NCBI GenBank assembly: GCA_030145325.1
Contig: JAQYVW010000026.1
Coordinates: forward strand, 1 to 37,410
Reading direction: 5' to 3'
DNA from: Desulfurivibrionaceae bacterium
Lineage (GTDB): Bacteria > Desulfobacterota > Desulfobulbia > Desulfobulbales > UBA5123
DNA: 37,410 bases
The translations under genes and the position numbers were made by a program. Within the stretch, counting starts at the first letter, position 1; the number at the start of each line of letters is the position of its first letter. Below, one piece after another: positions 22,954 to 26,290 of this stretch. The notes beneath the pieces were generated by a model. That model had not been told where the DNA came from, did no database searches, and saw only the letters and a list, made by a program, of their open reading frames with translations.

Positions 22954-23028
<75 letters not shown>

Positions 23029-23344: not shown

Positions 23345-23947
23345 ATGTCCGCATCCACCCCACAGAAACAGAGCACAATCCATCGCCAAACCAAAGAAAC
23401 CGACATCAGCCTCACCCTCAAGCTGAGCGGCACCGGTCAAGCCGATATTGCCACCGGCGTTCCTTTTATGGATCACATGCTGACCCTTTTTACTGTTCAT
23501 GGTTTTTTCGATCTCACCGTCAACGCCACCGGCGACACCGAGGTGGATGACCACCACACCGTCGAAGATCTCGGCATCTGCTTGGGCCAAGCGCTCAAAG
23601 AGGCCCTCGGCGACGGCAGCGCCATTCGCCGCTACGGCCATTTCTCCCTCCCCATGGATGAAACCTTGGTTCGGGTAGCCCTTGATCTCTCCAACCGCCC
23701 CTTTCTCCATTACGGGGTAACGATCCCCGACCAAAAGGTCGGCAACTTTGATACCGCTCTGGCCCAGGAATTCCTTCGCGCCTTCAGCCTCCACGGAGGC
23801 ATCACTCTTCATGTCGAGCTTGCGCACGGTGACAACAGTCATCATATCCTAGAAGGGATTTTCAAGGCCTTGGCCAAGGCGCTGGATCAAGCTTGTACGA
23901 CTGAACCACGCGCCAAAGGCGTACTATCCTCCAAAGGAACTTTGTAA
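23345..23947 (+). CDS. hisB: Imidazoleglycerol-phosphate dehydratase
   Basis: 200 residues. Dehydrates imidazoleglycerol phosphate to imidazole-acetol phosphate, the sixth step of histidine synthesis. It is a 24-mer with a two-manganese site. Metal-binding signatures are at 68-75 (DDHHTVED) and 166-170 (HHILE), each from one half of the internal duplication, plus FMDHML near 41. This is the single-function form, without the phosphatase domain fused in enterobacteria. AGGAG at 23333-23337 supports the ATG at 23345. Other his genes are absent from the window. Confidence 0.97.
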   Translation: MSASTPQKQSTIHRQTKETDISLTLKLSGTGQADIATGVPFMDHMLTLFTVHGFFDLTVNATGDTEVDDHHTVEDLGICLGQALKEALGDGSAIRRYGHFSLPMDETLVRVALDLSNRPFLHYGVTIPDQKVGNFDTALAQEFLRAFSLHGGITLHVELAHGDNSHHILEGIFKALAKALDQACTTEPRAKGVLSSKGTL

Positions 23948-23979: not shown

Positions 23980-24615
23980 GTGAAAAAATTTGCCGTCATT
24001 TCCACCTTGGCCTTATCGATTATAGTTCTCTTCCTATCTGGATGCGTGGGAACCAACAAGCTCCCTGCCGGTGCTCAATCTCCAGAACTACAAGCCATTA
24101 TCATCCTACCGGTGGCAACATTGGTGAGCAGTGACGACCAAGCTAACCTGAAAAGAGCGCAACAACTACAACGCGGCGCGGAAACCATGGATCGCCTGCT
24201 CACCGATTACTTTGCAGAAATGGATAACGTCAAGGTGATCTCTGTGGAGCAAATGCAAGTCCTCAGCAAAAACTACAGAAGTAGCCGGGCAGAACAAGCC
24301 CGTGAAATCGGGCAAAGATTGGGCTGCGATGCGGTCTTGCTCACCACCATCAACCGTTATGGCGAACGACAGGGCAGTGATTATTCAGCCGACCAGCCCG
24401 CCTCAGTGGCCTTTAACTTCAAACTGTTGGCAATAAAAAGCGGTCGCACCATCTGTTCCGGTTTCTTTGACGAAAGCCAGAAATCCCTGTTTGAGAACCT
24501 GCTTTCCTTCTCAGGCGCCGCCCGCCGCCAATTTAAATGGATCACCGCCACCGATCTGGCTAAAGAAGGCATCCAGCAACGTTTCGCCACTTGCCCCAAC
24601 CTTCGCCACCAATAA
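23980..24615 (+). CDS. Putative outer-membrane or periplasmic lipoprotein
   Basis: 211 residues starting with GTG; AAGGAT lies seven bases upstream. The N-terminus is a lipoprotein signal peptide: MKK, a hydrophobic stretch, and lipobox LSGC with Cys22 as the lipidation site. The mature part has a mixed alpha/beta pattern: IIILPVATLV strand, a helix with QQLQRG, KVISVEQMQVL, and RLGCDAVLLTTINRYGER. This order resembles periplasmic LpoB/TolB-N/CsgG-like domains, but I cannot make a firm assignment. The next residue after the lipid Cys is Val, not Asp, so outer-membrane sorting is likely. It follows hisB by 32 nt. Confidence 0.75.
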   Translation: MKKFAVISTLALSIIVLFLSGCVGTNKLPAGAQSPELQAIIILPVATLVSSDDQANLKRAQQLQRGAETMDRLLTDYFAEMDNVKVISVEQMQVLSKNYRSSRAEQAREIGQRLGCDAVLLTTINRYGERQGSDYSADQPASVAFNFKLLAIKSGRTICSGFFDESQKSLFENLLSFSGAARRQFKWITATDLAKEGIQQRFATCPNLRHQ

Positions 24616-24620
24616 AACGG

Positions 24621-25406
24621 ATGCCACAACTCTCCCCCCCAGCAACCACAGTTGCCAACCAATCTGCTGCCACCCTGCACAAAACCGTTAACCGGCTGGT
24701 GGGAAGAGCCATGCATGATTACCAAATGCTGGCCGACGGCGACCGGGTACTGCTCGCCGTCTCAGGCGGCATCGACAGCCTGGTGATGAGCTGGCTGCTG
24801 CAGCACTGGCAACGGAAAGCCCCCATCTCCTACACCCTGCTGGCCGCCAACTTGGACATGGGCTTTGGTGATGACGAACCACGTTTAATGGAGGAGCAGT
24901 TTAAGATCCTCGGAATTCCATACCTCATCGAACACACCGACTTCGGCACCCAAGCCATGCTGGCCGAAGAGGGCAAAAGTGGCTGCTTCCATTGCGCAAA
25001 AAAACGCCGCAACCGCCTGTTTGCCTTAGCAAAAGAAAAAGGCTGCAACAAAGTGGCCCTTGGTCATCACAAGGAAGACATCATCGAGACCCTGTTTCTC
25101 AACATGTTTTACAGTGGCAACCTTAGTACCATGGTGCCCAAGCAGGAACTGTTCCACGGCAATCTCTCGCTGATCCGCCCCTTGGCCTACCTTGAAAAAG
25201 ACCATATTCGCGCCTTGGCCAAAATTATCGGCGTAACGCCGGTGCCCAACCCCTGCCCACTATCAGAGAAATCAAAACGAAGCACGGTACGGACCCTACT
25301 GAACGATCTTTACCAACAAGATAACAGCCTCAAAGGCAACATCTTCGCCGCCTTGGGCAACATCAAACACGACTACCTCCTTAAACCTTCCAGCCACCGC
25401 CCCTAG
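24621..25406 (+). CDS. TtcA-like PP-loop tRNA-thiolation family ATPase
   Basis: 261 residues. TtcA-type enzymes activate a tRNA base with ATP at a PP-loop and insert sulfur with the help of an iron-sulfur cluster. PP-loop SGGIDS at 48-53. Cys122 and Cys125 form C-x-x-C (GCFHCAKKRR), and a third Cys212 sits in VPNPCPLS; together these are the three cluster ligands of TtcA. HHKED at 149-153 is a typical family motif. Classical TtcA has SGGKDS; here Lys is Ile, so this may be a sister subgroup with a different base or substrate. Start is ATG 24621; an upstream TTG would overlap the lipoprotein gene. It is followed by the DUF89 gene after only 5 nt. Confidence 0.85.
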   Translation: MPQLSPPATTVANQSAATLHKTVNRLVGRAMHDYQMLADGDRVLLAVSGGIDSLVMSWLLQHWQRKAPISYTLLAANLDMGFGDDEPRLMEEQFKILGIPYLIEHTDFGTQAMLAEEGKSGCFHCAKKRRNRLFALAKEKGCNKVALGHHKEDIIETLFLNMFYSGNLSTMVPKQELFHGNLSLIRPLAYLEKDHIRALAKIIGVTPVPNPCPLSEKSKRSTVRTLLNDLYQQDNSLKGNIFAALGNIKHDYLLKPSSHRP

Positions 25407-25411
25407 AACCC

Positions 25412-26290
25412 ATGCAAACCACCCTCGACTGCCTGCCATGCTTCATGCGCCAAGCCCTCTACACCGCCAGACTAGCCACCAACTCCGCAGAACTACAAAA
25501 AAAGATCCTGACCCAAGCGGCACACCTTCTCCCAGAATTAGATCTAAACCTCAGTCCACCAGAGAACTCTGTTGCCCTCTACCGGATGATCGCCGAAACC
25601 GCTGGCCGCCCCGACCCTTTTGCCAACCTGAAAAATGAAAGTAACCAACTGGCCCTGGAACTTGAGCCTCTAATTCGCCAACGGATCAACAACGCCCACG
25701 ACCCACTGGCCTTCGCAATCAAATTCGCCATCGCCGGCAACATCATTGATTATGGCGCCCACCATGATTTCGATGCTCGGCAGGCAATCAACAGCTGCAT
25801 TGAACAACAACTGGTCATTAATGATTACAAAGAACTTCGCCGCGAGGCGCTGGCGGCAAAATCGATCCTCTATCTGGCTGACAACTGCGGCGAGATCGTT
25901 TTCGATGGTCTGTTGATCGAACAACTGGGGCCGAAAAAAGTTACCATGGCCGTAAAAGAACGACCGATTATCAACGATGCCCTCCTGGCCGATGCTAGGA
26001 AGTGCGGCCTCGATAAAATATGCACCGTGATCAGCAACGGCACCGATTGTCCTGGCACCCCGCTGCACAATTGCAGTGAGGAATTTCAGGAACAATTCCA
26101 TAATGCCGACCTGATCATCAGCAAGGGGCAGGGAAACTTCGAGACCCTCTCCAACAGCAAAGCGCCGCTCTACTTCCTCCTCACCGCCAAATGCCCGGTG
26201 GTGGTTGATCATGTGAACGAAATTGCCGAAGGAGATAAAAAGGCGGGACTGGGTGATATGGTTTTACTACGGGCTGGAGAACCTAGATGA
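25412..26290 (+). CDS. DUF89-family protein (AF1104-like, possible damage-control phosphatase)
   Basis: 292 residues. DUF89 proteins are metal-dependent; characterised members remove phosphate from damaged or excess sugar-phosphate metabolites. The subgroup with N-terminal C-x-x-C is seen here: Cys7 and Cys10 in LDCLPCFMRQAL. Other motifs: IAGNIIDYG (107-115), the metal-site LADNCGEIVFD (155-165) with Asp157 and Asn158, KERPIINDA (182-190), and ADLIISKGQGNFE (232-244). It is 5 nt after the TtcA-like gene, so the pair is translated together. The role of the C-x-x-C subgroup is not settled; the pairing may point to sulfur or nucleotide handling, which is inference only. Confidence 0.88.
   Translation: MQTTLDCLPCFMRQALYTARLATNSAELQKKILTQAAHLLPELDLNLSPPENSVALYRMIAETAGRPDPFANLKNESNQLALELEPLIRQRINNAHDPLAFAIKFAIAGNIIDYGAHHDFDARQAINSCIEQQLVINDYKELRREALAAKSILYLADNCGEIVFDGLLIEQLGPKKVTMAVKERPIINDALLADARKCGLDKICTVISNGTDCPGTPLHNCSEEFQEQFHNADLIISKGQGNFETLSNSKAPLYFLLTAKCPVVVDHVNEIAEGDKKAGLGDMVLLRAGEPR

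Follow-up and report, generated by a model that had tools for sequence, protein, structure and literature searches.

The closest described systems for the first of the two genes studied here are the tRNA thiolases TtcA, TtuA and NcsA. Enzymes of this group are described as binding a [4Fe-4S] cluster through three conserved residues, which leaves one iron site free (PMC10067955). TtcA group I in the broad sense is characterized by a PP-loop and a central CxxC in proteins without terminal zinc fingers (PMC3980101, PMC6082896), whereas group II with TtuA and NcsA has zinc-finger CxxC motifs at both the N- and the C-terminus (PMC10067955, PMC3980101). The related TilS is described without the three cluster cysteines (PMC3980101). 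For the TtcA of Pseudomonas aeruginosa, an LSGGKDS signature and two CxxC motifs are given, and for the Escherichia coli protein a change of C219 to alanine that halved the activity (PMC6082896). CtaC of closthioamide biosynthesis belongs to the same superfamily and has the TtcA/TtuA-type cluster motif, but its substrate is a carrier-bound nonribosomal peptide, where it forms thioamides in a peptide pathway (PMC6772006). The second gene belongs to the DUF89 family, which is described as a family of metal-dependent phosphatases, some of which act on fructose-1-phosphate or oxidised phosphopantetheine (PMC8669784). In our literature search, we found no paper that joins DUF89 and TtcA in substance, none that links DUF89 with orange protein (ORP) and none that links COG1578 with iron-sulfur.

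Here, we analysed a window of 37,410 nt, that is, the whole stretch of DNA from a Desulfurivibrionaceae bacterium. In the window, a TtcA-like PP-loop gene (24621-25406, + strand, 261 aa) is followed after a gap of 5 nt (25407-25411) by a DUF89/ARMT1-like gene (25412-26290, + strand, 292 aa), as the initial annotation had correctly placed them. The start of the TtcA-like gene is an ATG; an alternative TTG start at 24591 would result in a protein of 271 aa. Both genes stand in a + strand run that begins with hisB (imidazoleglycerol-phosphate dehydratase, 23345-23947, + strand, Pfam IGPD E 2.7e-63, ATG start at 23345 taken from the sequence), followed by a small gene (23980-24615, + strand) with a lipoprotein-like N-terminus and no match in a Pfam/NCBIfam scan up to E 0.001; the gaps within the run are 32, 5 and 5 nt. 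The pair, which forms the last two genes of the run, is probably co-transcribed. Upstream of the run and on the opposite strand, there are frames that we take to be rplM, rpsI and argC, and a tRNA gene (22957-23028, - strand) is located between the rplM-like frame and hisB.

Family, fold and phylogenetic place of the TtcA-like protein

The family scores support the name TtcA-like, which the initial annotation had given to the first protein: among the NCBIfam models, TtcA (196.2 bits) ranks before TilS (72.3 bits) and TtuA (57 bits). With Pfam, the scan of the open reading frame detected only the PP-loop family ATP_bind_3 (PF01171, E 2.2e-19). The protein is nevertheless below the cut-off of the TtcA equivalog model NF007972 (196.2 versus 272 bits). 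Three scored members of the canonical TtcA clade reached 351.5, 421.2 and 513.8 bits with this model, whereas four scored members of the non-canonical lineage reached 181-196 bits. It is also below the cut-off of the TilS model TIGR02432 (72.3 versus 93.6 bits) and, unlike TilS, it has kept the cluster cysteines; these three cysteines are missing in the one TilS-like row of our alignment (L197).

The sequence features of group I in the broad sense are present, with SGGIDS at residues 48-53, C122/C125, three cysteines in total, a length of 261 aa and no terminal zinc fingers. The N- and C-terminal zinc-finger CxxC motifs of TtuA/NcsA are absent, as the protein contains a single CxxC in its 261 aa. 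The narrower signature of the P. aeruginosa TtcA is not matched, since the protein has VSGGIDS and only the central CxxC, whereas the second pair is represented by one cysteine. Compared to E. coli TtcA (b1344), the PP-loop, the three cysteine ligands at the same places and the top family score are alike; the two proteins differ in that they are only 35% identical, belong to different clades and, on the side of the thiolase, in the score below the cut-off, the isoleucine in place of the PP-loop lysine and the lack of a C219-type cysteine. The [4Fe-4S] tRNA thiolases TtuA and NcsA (5mkp, 5b4e, 6scy) share the fold and the three cysteines, but are only 20-24% identical, and the thiolase lacks their zinc-finger termini and has the low TtuA score given above. 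With the predicted structure (pLDDT 93.4), Foldseek placed TtuA and NcsA in ranks 1-17 (E 3.7e-14 to 1.6e-12) and TilS from 2.8e-11 onwards, and with VIA-align TilS (Z 25.2) and TtuA (24.9) tie, followed by NcsA (22.8).

To place the protein phylogenetically, we used a tree of 122 rows, which left out rows shorter than 215 aa, the TilS-like row and one row (L199) that is the E. coli TtcA protein itself. The 55 rows from the order Desulfobulbales form one clade (96/99) that is nested in a clade of 63 rows (90/84), and E. coli TtcA is found apart from them in a separate clade of 13 rows (99/93). Long branches lead to the rows of TtuA, NcsA and TilS, whose position is unsure, as is the root of the tree, and we make no claim about a sister lineage. 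Among the relatives on named contigs, the closest is 83% identical to the thiolase. Judged by these sequence comparisons, the lineage of the protein is TtcA-like but lies apart from canonical TtcA. The proposal that it differs from classical TtcA thus stands with respect to score and tree, with the cluster cysteines kept, but not with respect to SGGIDS, on which it had partly been based.

The source genome contains two PF01171 proteins, the thiolase and one that we take as TilS (G000:C124), and thus no second or canonical ttcA was found in this assembly, which is given as 97.8% complete. The initial annotation had reasoned that its reading would fail if no other ttcA existed and the protein grouped inside canonical TtcA; a second ttcA is indeed absent, whereas the grouping inside TtcA was not found.

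Among the relatives, two loci (L089 and L090, genomes G007 and G029) carry about 30 additional residues, inserted in frame close to residue 89. We also considered selenocysteine in relatives of the thiolase and rejected it: in ten loci of the alignment, which are part of the matches listed with one internal stop, no stop is found at a cysteine position. Of the two in-frame stops in L078, one is located at the C-terminal end, as in L014, L057, L079, L084, L089, L090 and L093, and the second in the N-terminal part, which is poorly aligned, as in L018 and L042.

Motifs and candidate substrate of the putative thiolase

The PP-loop SGGIDS, an ATP pyrophosphatase motif (S48-S53, 24762-24779, + strand), and the three TtcA-type cysteines had been recognized correctly. 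The latter comprise the central C122-x-x-C125 (24984-24995, + strand), which are probable [4Fe-4S] ligands, and C212 (25254-25256, + strand), the equivalent of E. coli C222 in the alignment of relatives. In 32 aligned relatives, the three cysteines as well as S48, G49, G50, D52 and S53 are invariant, whereas residue 51 is variable. Among 129 aligned sequences, which include one TilS-like row and E. coli TtcA twice, we counted SGGKDS (43), SGGVDS (38), SGGIDS (20), SAGVDS (1) and gaps (7); the rarer residues at position 51 are A (5), E (4), R (3), L (2), M (2), S (2), Y (1) and Q (1). Cysteine is present at both position 122 and position 125 in 122 of these rows, and the other seven are six gaps and the TilS-like row.

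The initial annotation had taken the isoleucine in SGGIDS as a possible mark of a different chemistry. Lysine at position 51 occurs in none of the 63 rows of the clade that includes the thiolase (55 from the order and 8 others) and in 13/13 rows of the clade with E. coli TtcA; the other 51 tree rows have K (29), V (7), A (4), R (3), Q (1) or gaps (7). However, two members of the non-canonical lineage that carry SGGKDS score as low with the TtcA model (L116, 184 bits; L126, 181 bits) as two carriers of SGGIDS (196 and 188 bits). Scores are thus equally low with lysine or isoleucine, which argues that residue 51 marks lineages and does not separate functions. On the basis of these alignments, SGGIDS does not hold as a sign of new or different chemistry. 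The lysine missing from all 63 rows could still be read as an inactive or non-adenylating PP-loop. We consider this highly improbable, as the five other residues of the motif do not vary in the 32 relatives and other PP-loop enzymes also differ at this position, for example, the TilS structure 3a2k with SGGPDS in our alignment.

A second difference to TtcA concerns the accessory cysteine (C219-type), which in TtcA lies three positions ahead of the third ligand. It was found in 0/55 rows of the order compared to 7/13 rows of the clade with E. coli TtcA. In the aligned sequences, it is the absence of this cysteine that distinguishes the thiolase lineage from TtcA.

We infer the function as a thiolase from the relatives of the protein. 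In analogy to TtcA, TtuA and NcsA, ATP would be bound at the PP-loop and used to adenylate a tRNA pyrimidine, C122, C125 and C212 would hold the cluster, and a sulfide on the free iron would displace the adenylate. As for the substrate, the tRNAs predicted by ARAGORN in the source genome have C32 and A38 in Arg-ACG, two Arg-TCG, Arg-TCT and Ser-GCT, and U32 in Arg-CCT. The targets of E. coli TtcA are tRNA-Arg and tRNA-Ser(GCU) species. Possible substrates with C32 and A38 thus exist in the genome, which is a necessary condition only. Furthermore, two copies of MnmA exceed the TIGR00420 cut-off (G000:C35:2945-3964 and G000:C126:14985-16001), and thus the thiolation of U34 would be served by other enzymes. 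Again by analogy, s2C32 would be the likeliest product of the thiolase; it is not assured because the protein is below the TtcA equivalog cut-off.

The enzyme might alternatively act on a substrate other than C32, such as a different tRNA nucleotide, a small molecule or a peptide. Such a substrate would fit the place outside the canonical clade, the missing C219-type cysteine and the gap between the TtcA scores of the lineage (181-196 bits, n=4) and those of the canonical clade (351-514 bits, n=3). We regard it as possible but doubtful: no second TtcA that could serve C32 was found in the source genome, U34 has its own enzyme in MnmA with two copies, the protein has no zinc fingers of the TtuA/NcsA type and tRNAs with C32 are present. 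With regard to a peptide substrate, CtaC is a precedent within the superfamily for a substrate other than tRNA; we found no sign of a nonribosomal-peptide pathway as for CtaC among the genes adjoining the pair in the window.

The DUF89 protein and its neighbourhoods outside the order

The second protein matches the Pfam family ARMT1-like_dom (DUF89, PF01937) with E 2.5e-71 and 240.9 bits, compared to a cut-off of 25. Among structures, PH1575 (2g8l) was matched both by sequence (E 7.1e-49) and by Foldseek with the predicted structure (pLDDT 93.8, E 5.2e-24). PH1575 and a second archaeal protein, AF1104 (2ffj), are the closest to the DUF89 protein and 34% and 29-30% identical to it, respectively, with a TM-score of 0.82-0.90 on query length. 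With two damage-control phosphatase equivalog models of NCBIfam, the protein reached 199 and 150 bits, below their cut-offs of 440 and 500.

The two archaeal proteins have in common with the DUF89 protein D157, N158, D194 and K238, which we take to be active-site residues, and three cysteines, namely C7 and C10 in the N-terminal C7-x-x-C10 (25430-25441, + strand) and C261 (26192-26194, + strand). All seven residues are kept in 76/76 relatives as well as in both archaeal proteins. This conservation suggests that the CxxC is a trait of a DUF89 subfamily that includes PH1575 and AF1104, and it makes phosphatase activity of the protein probable. The N-terminal CxxC is thus present as annotated initially, but it is not special to this DUF89 protein. 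In one other locus (L036:1000-2355), the open frame of the DUF89 gene runs on and also encodes SEC-C motifs and a domain of the YchJ-middle-like type, resulting in 451 aa.

Outside the order, CxxC-type DUF89 genes (L245-L284) recur beside genes for ORP/NifX-like, DUF5320, Mrp/NBP35 and CGGC proteins. Among 90 neighbouring open reading frames of 27 DUF89 loci, the Pfam families DUF5320 (9), Nitro_FeMo-Co (8), NUBPL ParA (5), CGGC (2) and NifU_N (2) were found; among 79 control frames, DUF5320, Nitro_FeMo-Co and NUBPL ParA occurred at most once each among the 25 commonest families listed. With wider flanks, at least one of the four families (ORP/NifX-like, Mrp/NBP35, DUF5320, CGGC) was detected in 14/40 DUF89 loci compared to 1/20 controls, which are loci around thiolase relatives (Fisher p = 0.012), and in 13/20 of the closest DUF89 loci compared to the same 1/20 (p = 0.00014). 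The search profiles were drawn from part of the same loci, which makes the test partly circular and both p-values optimistic. One thiolase relative outside the order (L296, genome G198) adjoins two Mrp/NBP35 and two NifX-like matches, without DUF89.

An Mrp/NBP35-ORP protein of Desulfovibrio is described as participating in Fe-S biogenesis (PMC6345978). The three invariant cysteines together with such neighbours make a link of the DUF89 branch to metal-sulfur clusters plausible. In its full form, the CxxC-type DUF89 proteins of bacteria and archaea would be a metallocluster-associated branch of phosphatases, in which C7, C10 and C261 bind a metal or an Fe-S cluster and whose partners build or use sulfur-metal clusters (ORP/NifX-like and Mrp/NBP35 proteins and, in Desulfobulbales, a [4Fe-4S] tRNA thiolase); we put this forward as a speculative idea that has the odds clearly against it. 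Within the order, ORP/NifX-like, Mrp/NBP35, DUF5320 and CGGC genes were found at 0/17 thiolase loci, 14 of which have DUF89, and at 0/5 loci with a relocated DUF89 gene, and the DUF89 proteins of the order do not nest in the ORP/Mrp-associated clade in a quick tree without bootstrap. Thus, the metallocluster lead cannot simply be applied to the window.

Conservation of the gene pair

We surveyed the pair in 58 genomes of the order, where weak matches of the TilS type were excluded from the thiolase count and genes with a gap of <300 nt were taken as adjacent. The thiolase was found in 52 genomes, DUF89 in 36 and both in 35; 17 genomes have only the thiolase, one (G006) only DUF89 and five neither. 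The two genes are adjacent in 27 genomes, separated by 1.7-2.5 kb in four (G005, G018, G042, G049) and on different contigs in another four. Adjacency in 27/58 genomes is more than chance, although in three of the 27 the locus is cut by contig ends (G031, G038, G045), and in one (G008) only a C-terminal remnant of DUF89 follows an open thiolase gene. In the 17 thiolase genomes that lack DUF89, the downstream sequence seen extends for at least about 1.5 kb in each case. The gene upstream of the thiolase gene is hisB in 36/37 loci of the order (L064-L080, L084-L103), also in loci without DUF89; the remaining locus (L091) starts within the thiolase gene. In 32/37 of these loci, the lipoprotein-like gene was detected in the interval from hisB to the thiolase gene. 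In the three loci viewed of the genomes with 1.7-2.5 kb between thiolase and DUF89 (L072, 6527-8116; L074, 5788-7398; L075) and in L076 and L080, the interval contains a gene of about 530 aa that we considered as a third partner, with or without a small gene on the opposite strand; the one copy scanned has no Pfam match over the cut-off.

In the phylum sample of 148 genomes (thresholds E <= 1e-15 for the thiolase and 1e-8 for DUF89), 50 genomes contain both genes, 49 only the thiolase, 23 only DUF89 and 26 neither (odds ratio 1.15, Fisher p = 0.73, in a test that takes no account of phylogeny and treats all TtcA-type proteins with E <= 1e-15 as one group). Within the order, tests of presence and absence have little power as the thiolase is nearly universal. 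Three of the 50 genomes with both genes belong to the order, and in the other 47 the genes are never adjacent but located on separate contigs or with 33 kb or more between them. Outside the phylum, DUF89 was not seen beside three thiolase relatives (L081-L083), two of which (L082, L083) have little flanking sequence. The restriction of the pairing to the order rests on the comparison with the phylum sample, in which many genomes are fragmented. The pairing, whose lack of conservation would likewise have counted against the initial annotation, is thus kept within the order, but not beyond the order in this sample.

Two adjacent genes may form one functional unit, in which DUF89 serves the thiolase, for example, by clearing a phosphorylated by-product or by aiding the Fe-S cluster via its three-cysteine site. 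Besides the adjacency in 27/58 genomes (one of them with a remnant), the overlap of the two genes in some genomes, which is 4 nt at most, favours translational coupling, and in one locus (L086) the pair is intact although about 3 kb lie between it and the lipoprotein gene and hisB. The invariant cysteines of DUF89 and, with the circularity noted above, the metallocluster-type neighbours outside the order point in the same direction, and a genome of the same genus (G001, 93% complete) lacks both genes, which speaks against independence. However, DUF89 is missing in 17/52 thiolase genomes and decayed in G008 while the thiolase gene remains open, G006 has DUF89 without the thiolase, the genes are nonadjacent outside the order (0/47) and independent in their presence over 148 genomes, and metallocluster genes flank neither the thiolase loci nor the relocated DUF89 loci of the order. 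Functional coupling is therefore not supported, and we consider the unit unlikely. The coupled pair of the initial annotation is thus real as a conserved arrangement in much of the order, but its functional interpretation was over-read; overall, that annotation combined correct observations with a reading that is only partly supported.

We conclude that the adjacency is an inherited arrangement of one order, that is, synteny at the level of the order, in which DUF89 is dispensable, and that the two genes most probably share an operon of the ordinary kind. Taken together, we favour, with some reservation, an ATP-dependent [4Fe-4S] tRNA thiolase outside canonical TtcA, with s2C32 as its likeliest product, which synteny has kept beside an independent DUF89 phosphatase. 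The product of the second gene would be a DUF89 phosphatase of the damage-control family, which is metal-dependent and works without need of the thiolase, and the pair would be the end of a hisB-lipoprotein-ttcA-DUF89 run retained in the order.

In the TtcA-like family, residue 51, the fourth residue of the PP-loop, should not serve for the prediction of function. The neighbourhoods of DUF89 genes outside the order offer a concrete and testable place to look for the function of the CxxC branch. The TtcA-like lineage is common in the phylum, and in the source genome it provides the only candidate found for the thiolation of cytidine; the label 's2C32 synthetase' on this lineage is thus putative.
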